Origin: Actinokineospora pegani
GTDB taxonomy: Bacteria > Actinomycetota > Actinomycetes > Mycobacteriales > Pseudonocardiaceae
NCBI RefSeq assembly: GCF_009745975.1
Contig: NZ_WHOL01000098.1
Location: 186,001-250,000, forward strand
Reading direction: 5' to 3'
Length of the DNA: 64,000 nt
The position numbers and the translations under genes are program-made. Positions within the stretch are counted from its first letter, which is position 1. Each line of letters starts with the position of its first letter. Under the pieces are notes generated by a model that saw nothing but the letters and a program-made list of their open reading frames with translations, was not told the DNA's origin and did not search any database. Shown here piece after piece: positions 4,222 to 44,574 of this stretch.

Positions 4222-4698
4222 GTGGCAGGACGTGGAACCCCGGCGACGGCGCTGCTCGCCAAGCGCGAAGTCACCCATTCGGTGCACACCTACGAGCACG
4301 ACCCGCGGGCTGAGTCCTACGGGCTGGAGGCCGCTGAGGCCATGGGGGTTGAGCCTGCTCGGGTGTTCAAGACGCTGCTGGCTGATGTGGACGGGGTGTT
4401 GGTGGTGGGGGTGGTGCCGGTGTCGGCGCAGTTGGACCTGAAGGCGTTGGCCGCGGCTGTGGGCGGCAAGAAGGGGCGGATGGCTGAGGTGGCGGCTGCT
4501 GAGCGGGCGACGGGGTATGTGGCGGGGGGTATCTCGCCGTTGGGGCAGAAGAGGCTGTTGAGGACAGTGGTGGATGAGTCGGCGTTGGGGTTCTCGACGG
4601 TTTTCTGCTCGGGTGGGCGGCGGGGGTTGGAGGTCGAGCTGGCTCCAGGTGATCTTGTTGGGTTGACCCGGGGTGTGGTTGCTTCGATCGCGGTTTAG
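4222..4698 (+). CDS. ybaK: YbaK/EbsC family aminoacyl-tRNA deacylase
   Basis: 158 aa, full length for the family. YbaK-type enzymes hydrolyse Cys-tRNA(Pro) made by mistake by prolyl-tRNA synthetase. Family features seen are the early 'HSYEHD'-like stretch (HTYEHDPRA), the 'VFKTLLAD' strand, the catalytic-lysine region 'KKGRMAEV', '[13 protein letters not shown]' and the C-terminal '[11 protein letters not shown]'. Start GTG 4222 immediately follows the divergent sigH promoter. The second half uses many G- and T-ending codons, part of a G-rich island that continues past its stop. Confidence 0.88.
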
Positions 4699-4710: not shown

Positions 4711-4903
4711 TGGGGGTGCCGGATCGGGTGGTTCTGTGTGGCCGGGGCCCCTACGACGATCATGTGCGTGAGGGCAAAAAGTGAGGGGAAGGGCACCCTC
4801 ACGCCCTCCCGAGGCTTGCACATGATCGCCTCCCCCAACCACACAGAACCACCCGATCCAGCCGTTCCGTAGGTCGGGCGCTGGGAGACTTGGGTGGGGT
4901 GTG
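4711..4903. repeat. Palindromic repeat, copy 1
   Basis: About 190 bp almost identical to 40990-41187. The core is a nested hairpin: outer arms 4718-4741 and 4839-4862 (24 bp, one mismatch), middle arms 4757-4767 and 4818-4828 (11 bp, perfect) and inner arms 4768-4774 and 4796-4802 (7 bp, perfect). It has no coding potential that I can see. It lies between the convergent 3' ends of ybaK and rsgA. No target-site duplication is evident. It could be a MITE-like element, a structured RNA or a bidirectional terminator. Confidence 0.85.
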
Positions 4904-4918: not shown

Positions 4919-5941
4919 CTAGTCCTGGGGGGCGGTTTCGTCCACGCCCGCCTTGGAGGCCAGGAGTCTTCTGAGAGAGGTGAGGCGGCCGGGGGTGGCC
5001 TCACCCCGCTCGACCACGTCGTCGAAGACGCAGCCGAGGTCGGCGGGGTTGCCCAGGTGGCCGCAGCCGGGGGGGCACTCCTCGGCGGGGGCGACGAACT
5101 CCTCGAAGGCGGCGACGATGTCCTTGGGCTCGATGTGGGCCAGGCCGAACGAGCGGATGCCGGGGGTGTCGACGATCCAGCCGCCGCTGGGGAGGGGCAG
5201 GGCCACGGCGGAGGTGGAGGTGTGGCGACCCTTGCCGATGGCGCTGACCACGCCGGTGGCCCGCAGGGCGCTGGGGACGAGGCGGTTGACCAGGGTGGAC
5301 TTGCCGACGCCGGAGTGGCCGACCATGGCCGAGACCTCGTCGGTGATCAGGGCGCGCAGCTCGGCGGGCTCCTCGTCGTGCCGGGTGATGACCACCGGCA
5401 GGTCCAGCTCGGCGTACTTGGCCAGCAGGTCGGCGGGGTCGGCCAGGTCGGCCTTGGTCAGGCAGAGGGTGGGTTGCAGGCCGCCCGCGAACGCCGCGAC
5501 CAGGCAGCGGTCGATGAAGCCGGTGCGCGGTGGCGGGTCGGACAGGGAGCAGACGATCAGCAGGCGGGCGGCGTTGGCGACGACCACGCGCTCGAAGGCG
5601 TCGGTGTCGTCGGCGGTGCGGCGCAGCACGCTGGTGCGGTCGGAGACGCGGACGATGCGGGCCAGGGTGTCGACCTCGCCGGAGGTGTCGCCGACGACGT
5701 CGACGTGGTCGCCGATGACGACCGGGGTGCGGCCCAGCTCGCGGGCGCGCATGGCGATCAGCAACCGGTCCGCGTCGCCGTCGACGGCGCAGGTCCAGCG
5801 GCCGCGGTCCTTGCCGACGACCATCGCGGCCACGGCGTCGGCGTGCTCGGGGCGGCGCTTGCTGCGCGGACGCGTCCCCTTGCCCGGGCGCACCCGCACG
5901 TCGGACTCGTCGAGCTGGCTCCAGTCGCCGCGCCGGGTCAC
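4919..5941 (-). CDS. rsgA: Ribosome small-subunit GTPase RsgA
   Basis: 340 aa. RsgA is a late assembly factor of the 30S subunit with circularly permuted GTPase motifs. Here the G4 motif TKAD precedes the P-loop GHSGVGKST, followed by switch II DTPGIR. An OB-fold domain lies N-terminal (about 45-110) and a C-terminal zinc region shows C-P-P-G-C-G-H plus a later Cys. GTG start 5941 follows the aroA stop by a single base, so the two genes are very likely co-transcribed and coupled, as in mycobacteria. The 3' end runs into a G-rich island and repeat copy 1. Confidence 0.95.
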   Translation of the reverse strand: MTRRGDWSQLDESDVRVRPGKGTRPRSKRRPEHADAVAAMVVGKDRGRWTCAVDGDADRLLIAMRARELGRTPVVIGDHVDVVGDTSGEVDTLARIVRVSDRTSVLRRTADDTDAFERVVVANAARLLIVCSLSDPPPRTGFIDRCLVAAFAGGLQPTLCLTKADLADPADLLAKYAELDLPVVITRHDEEPAELRALITDEVSAMVGHSGVGKSTLVNRLVPSALRATGVVSAIGKGRHTSTSAVALPLPSGGWIVDTPGIRSFGLAHIEPKDIVAAFEEFVAPAEECPPGCGHLGNPADLGCVFDDVVERGEATPGRLTSLRRLLASKAGVDETAPQD

Positions 5942-14898: not shown

Positions 14899-15396
14899 AT
14901 GGTGCGCTTGAGCATCCTGCCGGACATCATCGAGCCGGAACCCGCGTGGTCGACACCGCCACCGTCACCGCCGCGCCCGGTCGAGGCGCTGCGCCGGGGC
15001 CCGGTGCCCACCCGCGACGAGCCGGGCCCCACCCGGGACACGCTCTGGCGGCTGCTGGCACTGGTGCTGGAGGTGCTCGACGGCAAGCGCGCGCCGGGGC
15101 AACTGCGGGCCGCGGTGGACGCGGGGGTGTACGAGGCGCTGCTGACCAGGGCCAGGAAGAGCCGCGGTCGACGACATCGGCTCTTGTCGCTGCACACGTG
15201 CGCAGTTGTGCCGGGGGTGGTGGAGTTGTGCGCGTCGGTGCGGGTGGAGGGGCCCGGGGGCTGGCGAGTGCAGGCTTTCGCGGGCCGGATGGAGGCGGTG
15301 GAGGGGCAGTGGCGGTGCGTGCTGCTGCGCCCGCTGATCAACGGCCCCGGCAGGCCTGTGGGCCCGGTGACCAGCATCAACGCCAGGCGGGGGTAG
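14899..15396 (+). CDS. Rv3235/DUF6459-like protein
   Basis: 165 aa. The N-terminal third is proline-rich and low complexity. The remainder has the pattern of the actinobacterial Rv3235 family: a helix 'LWRLLALVLEVLDGKRAPGQLRAAVDAGVYEALL', then strands 'SLHTCAVVPGVVELCASVRV' and 'RVQAFAGRMEAVEGQWRCVLLRPL'. Family members lie near secA in many actinobacteria and have no known function. GGAGGAAA precedes the ATG. A terminator follows, and beyond it are two decayed copies of its own 3' end. Confidence 0.78.
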   Translation: MVRLSILPDIIEPEPAWSTPPPSPPRPVEALRRGPVPTRDEPGPTRDTLWRLLALVLEVLDGKRAPGQLRAAVDAGVYEALLTRARKSRGRRHRLLSLHTCAVVPGVVELCASVRVEGPGGWRVQAFAGRMEAVEGQWRCVLLRPLINGPGRPVGPVTSINARRG

Positions 15397-15409
15397 CCCG
15401 GGGACGCCT

Positions 15410-15440
15410 GTGCCGCGCCCGGTTCCGCTGGGCGCGGCAC
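15410..15440 (+). terminator. Terminator after the DUF6459-like gene
   Basis: An 11-bp perfect stem (15410-15420 with 15430-15440) and a 9-base loop, without a T-tract. A related but longer hairpin recurs at 15889-15929, as part of the repeated unit. Confidence 0.65.
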
Positions 15441-15888
15441 GGGTCGGGGTGGTGGACCTGTGCGTGTCGGTGCGAGTGGAGGGGCCGGGGGCTGGCGAGT
15501 GCAGGCTCTCGCGGGCCGCACGGAGGCCGTGGAGGGCAGTGGCGGTGCGTGCCCGCCCCAGCAAGCTCACGAGCCGCGCCCGGTGGAACCGGCGACACGG
15601 AACCGGGGGTGGTGCGGCCGCGCGGGTGGAGGCCGATAGGCACGATGACCAGCAGCAACGCCAAACGGAAACAGCCCGGGCCCACCCGTGTCGTCGCCCG
15701 GGCGGGCCGGGGCGGCACAGAACCAGGAGTGGTGAAGCTGCGCGGATGGGCGGGGCAGGAGCCGGCCTCCGCAGACCGCATGGAGACCGCTGGTGAGCAG
15801 TGGCGGTGCATGATCCCGCTACTCAACGGCCCCGCACACCGATAGGCACGATGACCAGCAGCAACGCCAAGCGGGAACAGCCCGGAAA
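15441..15888 (+). repeat. Two decayed tandem copies of the DUF6459-like 3' end
   Basis: This gene-free 545-bp gap (15397-15941) holds diverged copies of the preceding gene's tail. CTGGCGAGTGCAGGCT occurs at 15261 (intact gene) and 15492. CAGTGGCGGTGC occurs at about 15307, 15538 and 15798. GACCAGCA-CAACGCCA-type sequence occurs at about 15369 (intact), 15646 and 15852. None of the copies retains a full frame. The last unit runs into the secA terminator hairpin, so the duplicated block was tail plus hairpin. Confidence 0.85.
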
Positions 15889-15929
15889 CACCTGTGCCGC
15901 GCCCGGGCGGACCGGGCGCGGCACAGGTG
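15889..15929 (-). terminator. Terminator after secA
   Basis: Perfect 18-bp stem (15889-15906 with 15912-15929) with a 5-base loop, 12 bp past the secA stop. On the minus strand it is followed by a short GTTTCC tract. It is the larger relative of the hairpin at 15410-15440. Confidence 0.8.
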
Positions 15930-15941
15930 TGGGGGTGGTGC

Positions 15942-40509: not shown

Positions 40510-40974
40510 GTGGTCAGCCCCCGCACCCCGCGCCGCCACCCCCGCCGAGCGACCCGCGACCGCCACGGCCGGGGGCTGCGCGGGCCGCTCTACCCGTCGA
40601 CCCTGCCCGCGGCCGCCACGCGCGCGGAGAAGTTCGACACCCTGGTCCTCGACGCCCTCGAGCCCATCGAGGCGCGGTGGCGCACCGAGTTGACCAAGCT
40701 GGACGTGGCTGTGGATGACGTCCCCGAGGTTCCGGACAGCCCTGCCCCGGAGGGTGTCCTGGCTGATGGCGGGGTGCCGCTGGCGCGGCTGGTCTCGGCG
40801 GGGGTCGACCGGAGGGGGCAGCCGACTCGGGCTCGGATCGTCCTGTACCGGCGGCCGTTGGAGGCTCGGGCCAAGGACGGCGCGGATCTGGCGGATCTGG
40901 TCCATGACGTGTTGGTGGAGCAGGTCGCGGCCTATCTGGGGTTGGACCCCGGTGTGATCGATGGGGAGGGTTAG
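40510..40974 (+). CDS. Zincin-like metallopeptidase family protein with degenerate active site
   Basis: 154 aa from GTG 40510. It matches the actinobacterial family found divergently to DUF3499 (Rv3259-like): basic N-terminus 'RDRHGRGLRGPLYP', helix 'AEKFDTLVLDALEPIEARWRTEL', 'RARIVLYRRPLE' and the final 'LADLVHDVLVEQVAAYLGLDP'. The zincin HExxH is reduced to V-H-D-V-L-V-E-Q-V, so the glutamate and second His are not in place and ordinary peptidase activity is unlikely. Its 3' end is G-skewed and meets repeat copy 2. Confidence 0.8.
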   Translation: MVSPRTPRRHPRRATRDRHGRGLRGPLYPSTLPAAATRAEKFDTLVLDALEPIEARWRTELTKLDVAVDDVPEVPDSPAPEGVLADGGVPLARLVSAGVDRRGQPTRARIVLYRRPLEARAKDGADLADLVHDVLVEQVAAYLGLDPGVIDGEG

Positions 40975-40989
40975 GTTTCACGGGTGCCT

Positions 40990-41187
40990 GTGGGGGGTGC
41001 TGGATCGGGTGGTTCCGTGTGGCCGGGGACCCCTACGACGATCATGTGCGTGAGGGCAAAAAGTGAGGGGAAAGGCACCCTCACGCCCTCCCGAGGCTTG
41101 CACATGATCGCCTCCCCCAACCACACAGAACCACCCGATCCAGCCGTTGGCTGGGAACGGCGCTGGGAGATTTGGGTGGGTGGGGTG
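40990..41187. repeat. Palindromic repeat, copy 2
   Basis: Near-identical to 4711-4903. Outer arms are 40999-41022 and 41121-41144 (24 bp, one mismatch at a different position from copy 1); inner arms are conserved. It lies between the convergent ends of the zincin-like gene and the giant glycosyltransferase gene, the same arrangement as copy 1. Confidence 0.85.
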
Positions 41188-41202: not shown

Positions 41203-44200
41203 CTAAGGGGTCTTTCGTCTGCCGGGGATGGCTGTCAGCAGGGTGAACAGGAGGACGGCGCCCTGGACCAGCAGGAGCACTCCGCGCAGGGCGGTTGGCT
41301 GCTCTACGCGGATCTCCGCTGCTCGGGTCGGCAGGGTGACCGCCACCTGGCCCGACCAGGCTCGGTTGATGCCGGTGGGGCGGCCGTCGATGGTCGCGGT
41401 CCAGCCTGGTTCCTCTTCGGCGGCCAGGACCAGGAGGCGGCCCTGGGGGCCGTCTGACACGCGGATGGCCACCGAGGGGGCGGCGGCGTCGACCGGGACC
41501 AGGGCCGGGTTGTCGACCAGCGGTGGTGGCAGGGTGCCGAGCAGCGCGCCGCGCGCCTGGTCCGGGGGCAGCAGGTAGGCCGAGCCCGAGGGCGGCAGCA
41601 GGCGGAACACGGGGCGGCCGGTGCTGGTGGGTGGGGCGTCGGCGACCAGTTGGCCCGCGCGGTCCCGCAGGAGGTCGGCCGCGGGGTGGTCCGGGGCGAC
41701 GACGAACAGGACACCCGAGGCGGCGGCCTGGGCCGCCGCGCTGCGGACCGTGCCGGGCTCAGGGGAGCGGAGGTCGCGGTCCAGGGCGGCCAGGCGCGGG
41801 GGCGCCGAGGGGGTCGGGGCCAGGTCGTCGTCGGCGAACCTGGGGAGGCGGGCGGTGGTCTGGCGGGTGGGGGCGCCGTCGGCGGCCATGATGAGGACGG
41901 CGCGGCGGGTGTTGGCGAGTTCGGCGGTGAGGGTGGGCGACAGGGTCATGCCGCCGTCCGCGCGCAGTGGGCCCGCGGGGGCCAGGACCGGGCCGAGGGC
42001 CAGGGCCACCAGGCCCGCGAGGCCGACGCCGGTCACGACGCGCACGACCACCGGCGACGACGGCAGGCGCAGTCCGGCCGTGCCCGTGCGCAGCACCCCG
42101 GTCAGCGTCCAGACCAGGCCCCACCCGACGACCAGCAGTGGCGCGCCCGCCCAGGCGTGGGTGGCGGTGTCGGCACCCAGCGCGGTCGCCGGGGCCACCC
42201 GCACCAGCAGCAGCGCCAGGACGCCGACGAACGCGAAGCCCAGCCCGGGCAGCACCGCCCGGCCCGGCCGCAGCGCCACGCCCAGGACCACGGCGGCGAC
42301 CACGACGAGCCCGACCACCGGCCAGGCCCCCGGCCCGCCCGCGTGCAGCGACAGGACGTCCCAGAACGACGCGGCAGGCGTGTCGACCCGGGCGCCGACG
42401 CCGTGCAGGACCACGCCGGGGTGCTGGATCACCACCGCGGGCCACGGCAGCAGCAGCGCCAGCGGCATCAGGACCAGCAGGAACAGGGCCGCCCCGCGCC
42501 GCCTGCCCGCGCCGGGCACGGCGACGAACCCGCCCAGCGCGACCACGACCAGCACCAGGTGCGTCAGCGGGGAGAACGCCCCGATGACCGCCAGGCCCAG
42601 CGCGGTGCCCGCGGCGGTCGACAGCCAGGCCGTCGGACCGGCGCCGGTCCGCCGCCGCACCAGCAGCGCGGTGATCCCGGCGCTGACGACGGGCAGCAGG
42701 ACGTGCACGACGACGACGTCGAGCCTGCCCTGGGCCACGGCCGCCGCGCCGGTGGGCAGCAGGGCGTAGCCGATGGCGAGCAGGGCCCGCACCCAGCGGC
42801 GCACGGGGGCCCGGCGGGTGGCCAGGTAGGCGCTCAGGCCCGCCAGCGGGATGTCGGCCAACAGCAGGAGCGCGACCGCGGCCTGCACCCCGCCGAGCGG
42901 GGCCAGCAGCGCCCCGAGCAGCCCGAGCACGGCCAGCGCGGCGGGCGCGGGGGCCGCCGTGCCGCCCGCGACGCCGTGCCAGGAGCCGACGTACCCCGCC
43001 CAGGTCTGGCCGAGGCCGCCCACCGGCAGCAGCCTGCCGCCCGCCAGGTCCAGGCCCAGCCTGCCGGAGTTGACCACGAGGGCGAGGGCGGCGAGGCCGA
43101 TGAGCAGCAGCAGCGGCGGGGCCAGCAGGATCTGGCGCAGCACCCGGCCCCGGTCGACCGGCACGAGCACCAGGTCCGGGGCGGGTTCCGGGCCGCTGCC
43201 GTCGCGCGGGACCGGCGAGGGCCGGGGCGCGGGGGCGGGCCTGGGTCCGTCGACCGGGATCGGCTCGGGGAGCCGCACGGCGATGGCCGGGGCCGGGCGG
43301 CGCAGGCCCGCCGGGCGCCTGGGCCGGCGGCCCTGCACGCCCGCGGGCAGCGCCTCCGGCCCGGTCTGGGGGCGCGCCGTGCCGGGGGCCAGCCAGACCG
43401 CGTCGGGGGCGTAGTCGCTGGGCAGGCGGCCGAGCGCGGCGTCGGCCTGGACGCGGCGGCGGACCATGGCCGACAGCGCGCCGCGCGCGGCGTTGCGCAG
43501 CCGGGTGAAGCGGCTGGTGAACAACCCGCGGACGCTGCCCCCGCCCGCCGACTCCGCGCGCTGGGCGCGGGCCTGGAGCAGTTCGGCGTGGCCGGTCACC
43601 AGGTAGCTCAGCGCGGTCAACTCGGCGCGCGCGTCGGCCCCCCGCCGTTGCAGCGCGGAGCCGAGCGCCCGCAGCAGCGCCAGCACGACCAGGCGGGGGA
43701 CGCCGAGCACGAACGAGACGACCGAGCAGTTGACCAGGAACGCGCGCATGCCGTGCCCGCGGTCGACCGCGCGCGCCGACGAGCCCAGTGCCACGGGGTG
43801 CGCGTCGAGCACCCGGCGGCCGGTGCCGATGGCGCGGGCGTGCCGGATGCGCGCGGACGGCACGCACAGCACCACGCGGCCGGAGCGGTTGACCCGCCAG
43901 CCGAAGTCGATGTCCTCGCGCAGCACGGTGAACGCGCGGTCGAACCCGCCGAGGGACTCCCACGCGTCGCGGCGCACCAGCATCCCGGCCGAGGACACGC
44001 CGAGCACCTCGGTGCTCTGGTCGAACCGGCGGTCGCCGCCCCGGCCGAGCCGGTCCCAGTCCAGTTCGGACGGACCCACGCCGGTCTGCCGGTGCCCGGA
44101 GGCGTCGGTGGACAGTCCCGCCTCGACGACCAGCCGCGGGTCGTGCCAGTCCACCGCGAGCGGGCCGAGCACGGCGGCCGACGGCGACAGCTCGGCGGCC

Positions 44201-44574
44201 AGCAGCAGGGTGGACAGGCAGTCCGGGTCGGGCGCGGAGTCGTCGTGCAGCAGCCAGATCCACCCGCCGGGGTCGCCCCAGCGCTGCACGGCGTGGTCGA
44301 CGGCGGCGTGCACGGCGGTGGGGTAACCGGCCCGCCGGTCGAGGGTGATCACTCCATCGAGGACCCTGTCCTCGCCCTCGGCGGCCGCGGCGAGCATCTC
44401 GGCGGTCTCGTCGGTGGAGCCGGTGTCGACGGCGATCACGTGCCGCGGTCTCGGTGTGGAGTGCCGCAGCGCCGACAGCGCCACCCGCAGCCACTGCGCC
44501 CCGTCGTGGCACACCAGCACCGCGAGCACGGGGGCGGTCCGCAGGACCGGCGCCGGGCGCGACCGCGCCGTCAT
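41203..44574 (-). CDS. Very large membrane glycosyltransferase (GT2 plus polytopic domain)
   Basis: 1123 aa. Residues 1-310 are a GT2 domain: 'VLVCHDGAQWLRVALSALRH', 'VDTGSTDETAEML', D-D in 'WLLHDDSAPDPDCL', and 'VLREDIDFGWRVNRSG' (the E-D acceptor-site motif). One or two helices follow, then a Pro/Arg-rich linker (about 380-480) and a polytopic part (about 490-900, roughly a dozen helices), ending in an extracytoplasmic beta-rich domain and a last helix near 1095-1115. The architecture is like actinobacterial GT2 proteins encoded near whiB2; it probably builds an envelope polysaccharide with a lipid-linked donor, but donor and acceptor are unknown. Confidence 0.85.
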   Translation of the reverse strand: MTARSRPAPVLRTAPVLAVLVCHDGAQWLRVALSALRHSTPRPRHVIAVDTGSTDETAEMLAAAAEGEDRVLDGVITLDRRAGYPTAVHAAVDHAVQRWGDPGGWIWLLHDDSAPDPDCLSTLLLAAELSPSAAVLGPLAVDWHDPRLVVEAGLSTDASGHRQTGVGPSELDWDRLGRGGDRRFDQSTEVLGVSSAGMLVRRDAWESLGGFDRAFTVLREDIDFGWRVNRSGRVVLCVPSARIRHARAIGTGRRVLDAHPVALGSSARAVDRGHGMRAFLVNCSVVSFVLGVPRLVVLALLRALGSALQRRGADARAELTALSYLVTGHAELLQARAQRAESAGGGSVRGLFTSRFTRLRNAARGALSAMVRRRVQADAALGRLPSDYAPDAVWLAPGTARPQTGPEALPAGVQGRRPRRPAGLRRPAPAIAVRLPEPIPVDGPRPAPAPRPSPVPRDGSGPEPAPDLVLVPVDRGRVLRQILLAPPLLLLIGLAALALVVNSGRLGLDLAGGRLLPVGGLGQTWAGYVGSWHGVAGGTAAPAPAALAVLGLLGALLAPLGGVQAAVALLLLADIPLAGLSAYLATRRAPVRRWVRALLAIGYALLPTGAAAVAQGRLDVVVVHVLLPVVSAGITALLVRRRTGAGPTAWLSTAAGTALGLAVIGAFSPLTHLVLVVVALGGFVAVPGAGRRRGAALFLLVLMPLALLLPWPAVVIQHPGVVLHGVGARVDTPAASFWDVLSLHAGGPGAWPVVGLVVVAAVVLGVALRPGRAVLPGLGFAFVGVLALLLVRVAPATALGADTATHAWAGAPLLVVGWGLVWTLTGVLRTGTAGLRLPSSPVVVRVVTGVGLAGLVALALGPVLAPAGPLRADGGMTLSPTLTAELANTRRAVLIMAADGAPTRQTTARLPRFADDDLAPTPSAPPRLAALDRDLRSPEPGTVRSAAAQAAASGVLFVVAPDHPAADLLRDRAGQLVADAPPTSTGRPVFRLLPPSGSAYLLPPDQARGALLGTLPPPLVDNPALVPVDAAAPSVAIRVSDGPQGRLLVLAAEEEPGWTATIDGRPTGINRAWSGQVAVTLPTRAAEIRVEQPTALRGVLLLVQGAVLLFTLLTAIPGRRKTP

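Follow-up and report, generated by a model that had tools for sequence, protein, structure and literature searches.

The two long hairpins of the window, a stretch of 64,000 nucleotides from an Actinokineospora genome, are members of a large structured repeat family of this genus of soil bacteria. Comparison of many copies indicates that one strand of the element folds; this strand, called S below, is the minus strand of the window. On balance, our favoured explanation is a mobile repeat of about 150 nt, non-coding and non-autonomous, whose copying proceeds through one folded single strand with a fixed polarity. The most likely identification is a REP-like mobile element of new build, ahead of a local regulatory RNA. 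The copies are many, related within a species and different between species, and they are present or absent at orthologous gaps.

The first-pass annotation had described a hairpin repeat in two copies, each between convergent genes, and both the repeat and its setting proved to be real (Table 1). The two copies have in common a 155-nt block of 94% identity (4744-4898 and 41026-41180), and their second arms are 93% identical (4712-4751 and 40993-41032); the outer arms of copy 2 are 90% complementary. When the arms of the two copies are compared on the minus strand, T-A stands against T-G at two positions, the T-G pair lying at the stem foot in copy 1 and in CACGGAACC in copy 2, and each copy also has two more T-G pairs, GGTTGGGG / CCCCGGCC, which do not differ between them. 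Every T-G pair of the window arms is C-A on the plus strand, in agreement with the earlier remark that both arm substitutions read C-A on plus and G-U on minus. RNAfold values are -110.6 for the minus strand versus -97.1 for the plus strand of copy 1, and -107.4 versus -95.6 for copy 2. No Rfam family is matched in the window, and in seven element loci there are three Rfam matches, each under the gathering score. Another part of the window, 15250-15933, contains a separate direct-repeat group (D2, D12) and an inverted repeat of 41 nt whose arms are separated by 445 nt; no resemblance to the hairpin element was seen there.

Table 1. Positions of the two copies, the structural parts of copy 2 and the flanking genes in the window. 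R1 is a covariance model built on 44 copies (see text).
Feature	Position	Strand	Basis
Copy 1, folded element	4714..4861	- (S strand)	R1 covariance match, 138.8 bits minus versus 63.6 plus
Copy 2 (L001), folded element, about 149 nt	40995..41143	- (S strand)	R1 covariance match, 135.9 bits minus versus 63.4 plus, this copy being part of the R1 training set
Copy 2 outer stem, 5' arm on S	41115..41144	-	Inverted repeat I10; covarying helix 1
Copy 2 outer stem, 3' arm on S	40999..41028	-	Inverted repeat I10; covarying helix 1
Asymmetric internal loop, 3' side, on S GTAGGGGT then CCCC	41029..41036	-	Sequence
Asymmetric internal loop, 5' side, GA	41113-41114	-	Sequence
Inner stem, 5' arm on S, GGCGATCATGTGC	41100..41112	-	Sequence; helix 2 of the covariation test
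Inner stem, 3' arm on S, GCACATGATCGTC	41037..41049	-	Sequence; helix 2 of the covariation test
Apical hairpin then TTTTT on S, intrinsic-terminator-like	41063..41084	-	Terminator-like site in copy 2
5' flank on S, common to both window copies	41145..41180	-	Direct repeat D3 ends at 41180; flanks of other copies
YbaK-like aminoacyl-tRNA editing domain protein, ends before copy 1	4222..4698	+	PF04073
RsgA GTPase, converges on copy 1	4919..5941	-	PF03193
Zincin-like metallopeptidase (Zincin_1), ends just before copy 2	40510..40974	+	PF06262
Large family 2 glycosyltransferase, converges on copy 2	41203..44574	-	PF00535

That the repeat pair is far beyond chance is clear from the genome to which the window belongs (G000, 128 contigs), where BLAST gives 34 matches including opposite-strand echoes, which correspond to about 17-19 places, some of them partial and two of them those of the window. 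A scan with the core motif (at most one mismatch) finds 17 places in this genome, 117 in A. bangkokensis (G002) and 42 in A. spheciospongiae (G004), and none in the other 13 genomes of the genus. Among the matches listed in a scan of named genomes, these two species and one false positive appear. Sequence searches alone give a false picture of a narrow distribution: BLAST has a match in 4 of 61 genomes, the own one counted, and the core motif in 3 of 16 genomes of the genus and in 5 of 390 of the family. G001 and G084 account for two of the latter five, each with a single one-mismatch hit at which no such hairpin was seen. The covariance model R1, built on 44 copies of G000, G002, G004 and G013, raises the number of carriers to 15 of the 16 Actinokineospora genomes (E 0.01), the exception being G012. 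The number of R1 matches per carrier genome, possibly including opposite-strand echoes, ranges from 10 to at least 150. In the complete genome G006 there are at least 149 places among 150 scored candidates, none closer than 239 bp to another, and the complete genomes G014 and G007 have 102 and 74 R1 matches, respectively. When R1 is applied to the family at E 1e-6, 28 of 390 genomes are matched, namely the 15 Actinokineospora genomes and 13 genomes of four other genera. The latter, other Pseudonocardiaceae, contain weaker relatives: one locus was folded from each of 12 of the 13, and these loci follow the same plan but score lower and vary in the loop. The exact core motif is not matched in viral contigs, and window copy 2 has no BLASTN match in phages and plasmids.

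In A. spheciospongiae, 13 of the 33 listed core-motif places (42 in total) are found 40 bp or less from the start of a contig (for example, L061, L064, L076 and L079). This pile-up implies that the element breaks short-read assemblies and that copies are undercounted there.

The copies follow a shared plan on S, which consists of an outer stem of about 28 pairs, an asymmetric loop, an inner stem and an apical hairpin. In order along S, the outer stem is followed by GGGG, a short 5' loop side (GA or similar), the inner stem, the apical hairpin, TAGGGG (or CAGGGG, GAGGGG) and then the CCCC that closes the outer stem. The inner stem has about 10-14 pairs and differs strongly in sequence among species (GGCGATCATGTGC, AAGGAAGATCGC, ACGGCACCCGT and others), whereas AGGGGCCCC, with at most one substitution, is found on the 3' loop side in 83 of 83 copies from 11 species. 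As judged by eye, the sequence next to the hairpin also looks conserved within species, over roughly 20-50 nt on its 5' side and about 20 nt on its 3' side. Copies can also be grouped: 26 of the 113 loci of G006 have more than one copy, both inverted and tandem, the spacing in the tandem arrays being mostly 239-277 bp (range 239-334, two wider), and inverted pairs occur in G006 and in A. bangkokensis.

Some copies have additional modules. Five copies of A. bangkokensis (L086, L087, L088, L202 and L228) form one subfamily with a further conserved module, GCGCGGGGGTAACCCGGGCAAGGGGACCCCTGTTTTCAACGTTACCGGCGGGG ... CTGTGGACAACTC, which suggests that these copies belong to a composite unit that is larger, with a length of more than 400 bp. 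At L018, L032 and L039, a 5' flank module (AGCAGCGC..CCACC..AACCGC) looks by eye to be tandemly duplicated upstream of the copies.

The sequence of the element diverges at the species level, and pairing is kept by compensatory changes. In the 44-copy alignment, 99.0% of 1758 cells are paired, by a structure that was itself derived from the same sequences. Changes on both sides are found in 25 of 40 pairs, a number that none of 500 shuffled alignments reaches (13.6, sd 1.5). Related sequences may exceed shuffles without any structure, and therefore the control in which the partners are slid against each other matters; here pairing is at most 43.8%.

The wobble pairs identify the folding strand. 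The first set comprises 126 copies, one taken from G013 and the others from G000, G002 and G004, and contains 4914 stem cells, of which 4675 are Watson-Crick, 171 GU, 18 AC, 46 other and 4 gap. The second set comprises 83 copies of 11 species, excluding the two rows of the window and the opposite-strand duplicates of the R1 search, and shares one copy with the first (L034, the same as L321); its outer stem has 2272 Watson-Crick, 105 GU, 3 AC, 24 other and 6 gap cells. Counted as distinct species-by-site changes, the second set has 38 GU versus 3 AC (p = 1e-8). S was assigned by the core motif in the first set and by the model score in the second, where the loop confirmed it in 83 of 83 copies, so that the strand was not chosen by wobble pairs alone. 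These counts argue that S is the strand that folds, since a double-stranded palindrome or cruciform gives no reason for a preference for one strand. A crude wobble count on 101 of the 126 copies (101 GU, 58 AC, 173 other) was replaced by the alignment-based count; it was misleading because its two outermost columns did not belong to the stem. These columns contributed 44 of the AC and 129 of the other cells, and without them the count becomes 99 GU, 14 AC and 44 other.

The first-pass annotation had proposed, from two substitutions, that the minus strand folds and that the function lies at the RNA level, and had named arm changes that break pairing equally on both strands as evidence against this. 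With many more copies collected, pairing is not broken equally on both strands, and the minus-strand orientation is strongly supported. RNA-level function is not established by the sequence data, because a one-strand G-T preference is equally expected for folded single-stranded DNA.

A different question is when folding matters, and for this we compared shared changes, carried by at least two copies within a cluster of closely related copies, with private changes, which are singletons. Clusters of fewer than three copies and pairs without a Watson-Crick majority were dropped in both sets, and species with fewer than five copies were also dropped in the second. In the first set clustered at 90%, the ratio GU:AC is 15:2 for shared and 12:10 for private changes; at 94% the ratios are 9:2 and 12:8, and at 86% they are 14:2 and 15:11. 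In G006 alone, the sole densely sampled genome of the second set, they are 8:1 and 7:8. When the first set and G006 are pooled, a combination chosen after the data were seen, shared changes are 23:3 and private changes 19:18 (Fisher p = 0.0026). Over all species of the second set, the shared ratio is 13:2, the private ratio is 22:12, with a lean to GU (p = 0.12), and the contrast between the two classes is not significant (p = 0.17). We read the contrast as suggesting that folding is needed for the multiplication of a copy, with little constraint once the copy is in place. Alternatively, private changes may simply be young; weak local selection on copies in place may also act, given the lean of private changes to GU and the p value of 0.17 in the whole second set.

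Intergenic gaps between convergent genes are strongly preferred by the copies. The first set has 116 classified copies, of which 80 are convergent, 33 co-directional (++ 20, -- 13) and 2 divergent, and 1 overlaps an ORF; this count drops 8 copies with short flanks, 1 without a flanking gene and a single false positive (L201). The second set has 79 classified copies, of which 44 are convergent, 19 and 16 co-directional and none divergent, and 4 more copies are without a flanking gene. Among the background adjacent gene pairs, element-bearing gaps included, 173 of 912 and 142 of 669 are convergent. Note that the genes were called by a codon-usage script that missed at least the short YbaK-like gene of the window, and for this reason copy 1 was counted as '++' in the first set in spite of being convergent. 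Relative to co-directional neighbours, the orientation of S is nearly random in both sets.

The strongest rival is a local RNA element in which the S hairpin acts in the 3' ends of transcripts between convergent genes as a terminator, processing or stability element, and gene conversion homogenises the copies. Consistent with such a role are the preference for convergent gaps, the near lack of copies in divergent ones, the terminator-like site in copy 2, the occupation of both window gaps in a related species too, and a run of at least three T after the hairpin, which is present on S in 80 of 204 copies and on the other strand in 0 of 204. However, 77 of these 80 copies are in G000 and G002/G004, the only genomes where the feature is frequent. 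The element resembles intrinsic terminators between convergent genes in its location and in the apical hairpin of part of the copies of G000, A. bangkokensis and A. spheciospongiae, but differs from them in being a dispersed homologous family with a U-run that is not conserved across the genus. Moreover, S is antisense almost as often as sense to co-directional neighbours, and private changes have no GU bias in the well-sampled sets (7:8 in G006 and 12:10 in the first set). A bias in inherited changes that is absent from private ones, in these two well-sampled sets, fits folding during propagation better than a local RNA function, and we regard this rival as unlikely.

Orthologous gaps bear on the same question. 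In the ybaK-rsgA gap, A. bangkokensis carries a version of its own that is oriented as in the window. At the copy 2 gap of A. spheciospongiae there is a partial copy, cut by a contig end, which, as read from the pattern strand and the alignment direction, points in the opposite direction and thereby speaks against a local RNA element. Three other orthologous gaps have a copy in A. bangkokensis and are short and without the element in the window genome; at these three loci, the junctions of empty and filled gaps do not fix exact ends or target duplications. Insertion may have recurred, and old sites may have been homogenised later; both processes may contribute to this pattern.

Under the favoured reading, the unit of the element would be the hairpin of about 150 nt together with conserved flanks of a few tens of nt, and the folded form of fixed polarity would be S, most likely as single-stranded DNA, with RNA as a possible form. 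A trans-acting enzyme would recognise folded S and insert the element, and the surviving copies would be those at sites where neither promoters nor operons are disturbed. The element may in addition serve as a barrier at the 3' ends of convergent genes, which would be a secondary effect.

The search for a mobilising gene does not provide evidence for the usual one-strand machinery in the carriers, because Y1_Tnp and RVT_1 are sparse and a lagging-strand preference is not replicated. Y1_Tnp (PF01797, IS200/RAYT-type) is not found in 13 of 15 carriers, including the own genome; of the 16 genus genomes, most of them drafts, 2 are matched (G007 and G014 only), and of 14 controls, 5. RVT_1 is found in 3 of 16 genus genomes (G003, G007 and G011), is not found in 12 of 15 carriers, and has no match in G000, G002, G004 and G013. 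Y2_Tnp (PF04986) is matched in 0 of 16 genus genomes, and in no control genome either. A significant preference for the lagging strand is seen in the single copies of G006 (59 of 87, p = 0.001), but it is not significant over all 149 of the G006 places scored (77) and is not replicated in G014 (44 of 87) or G007 (30 of 61).

We also looked for an autonomous parent between paired copies. No gene was called between the cores of three short hairpin pairs (L252-L254), two genes of a DddA-like / Imm1 pair, which have no relation to transposition, are enclosed by a 1.7-kb pair, and the gene calls in a 2.1-kb pair (L250) were taken by eye as ordinary host genes. In seven loci of 17.6-20 kb with clusters, pairs or several copies, no transposase-like gene was recognised by eye, and among the nearest neighbours of 79 copies there is no protein with more than two homologues. 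The DddA-like deaminase / Imm1 pair, on an A. bangkokensis scaffold (L251, 1200-2950), is flanked by two copies in head-to-head orientation, and the second copy is truncated.

These results also bear on the possibility of an ordinary MITE, in which the outer arms are the terminal inverted repeats of a double-stranded-DNA (DDE) transposon acting in trans. The element is indeed small, dispersed, multicopy, palindromic and non-coding, with inverted repeats, and sits in convergent gaps. However, recognition of duplex ends predicts neither a GU bias on one strand nor the covariation of the inner stem (helix 2), and the pairs and clusters inspected, a small part of the copies, did not reveal a parent with these ends; we consider this explanation improbable. 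Still less probable is a multicopy family of trans-acting structured RNA genes or an RNA retroelement. RNA-like wobble and covariation and the conserved flanks would suit it, but copy 2 has no match to a sigma-70-type promoter (actinobacterial promoters may differ), and the lack of Rfam matches in the window and the scarcity of RVT_1 speak against it.

The idea that a RAYT (Y1) transposase moves the element, as it would a classical REP/BIME, is largely refuted: high copy number, inverted pairs, tandem clusters, a convergent location as reported for REPs (PMC3733652, accessible part) and one-strand recognition as in the accessible part of PMC6006769 would agree with it, but most carriers have no Y1_Tnp match, no element lies within 1.5 kb on either side of the two Y1 genes in the 3.4-kb loci around them, and the nearest copies, among the best 63 of 74 matches listed in G007 and the best 87 of 102 in G014, are 34.8 kb and 12.6 kb away, respectively.

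The element can be compared with the REP/BIME/REPIN elements of RAYT (TnpA-REP) systems. According to the accessible parts of two papers, REPs are 20-40 bp long, tagged by GTAG or CGTC and mostly located between unidirectional and convergent ORFs (PMC3733652), and RAYT enzymes, the use of ssDNA, and species-specific REP sequences with a common structure have been described (PMC6006769). Our element has in common with them dispersed palindromic non-coding repeats of species-specific sequence and common structure, head-to-head and tail-to-tail pairs and clusters, a convergent or downstream location and, presumably, recognition of one strand. It differs in being a two-stage hairpin of about 150 nt whose asymmetric TAGGGGCCCC loop is conserved, and not a hairpin of 20-40 nt with a GTAG/CGTC foot (or GTGG tag): no foot tag is conserved by eye in the S flanks of 26 copies of 12 species, and GTAG sits inside the internal loop in some species only. 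The ends of IS200/IS605 elements are similar in being imperfect hairpins used on one strand only, but no Y1 gene is found in the genome of the window and there is no preference for replication orientation in two of the three genomes tested. Integron attC sites are folded-strand sites in cassette arrays with an IntI integrase; the copies described here are dispersed. A literature search, in which coverage of subscription journals was mostly lacking, found no paper on the Actinokineospora element, and the accessible part of the A. bangkokensis genome paper (PMC6273641) has only CRISPRs under 'palindromic'.

More tentatively, and as a proposal to which we give somewhat less than an even chance, the element may belong to a mobile lineage of the Pseudonocardiaceae that propagates as a folded single strand, which a mobilising system other than a Y1/RAYT transposase or a known reverse transcriptase would recognise by its conserved asymmetric TAGGGG/CCCC loop, and whose stems drift in a compensatory manner so that each species has its own version.

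The element represents a repeat family in which structure is kept while sequence drifts, present at no fewer than 149 places in one genome of an actinobacterial lineage in which the usual REP machinery was not found. The contrast between shared and private wobble changes is a reusable test that separates selection during propagation from selection in place, and the 15 carriers and one non-carrier within a single genus make a clean setting in which to look for a new enzyme of mobilisation.
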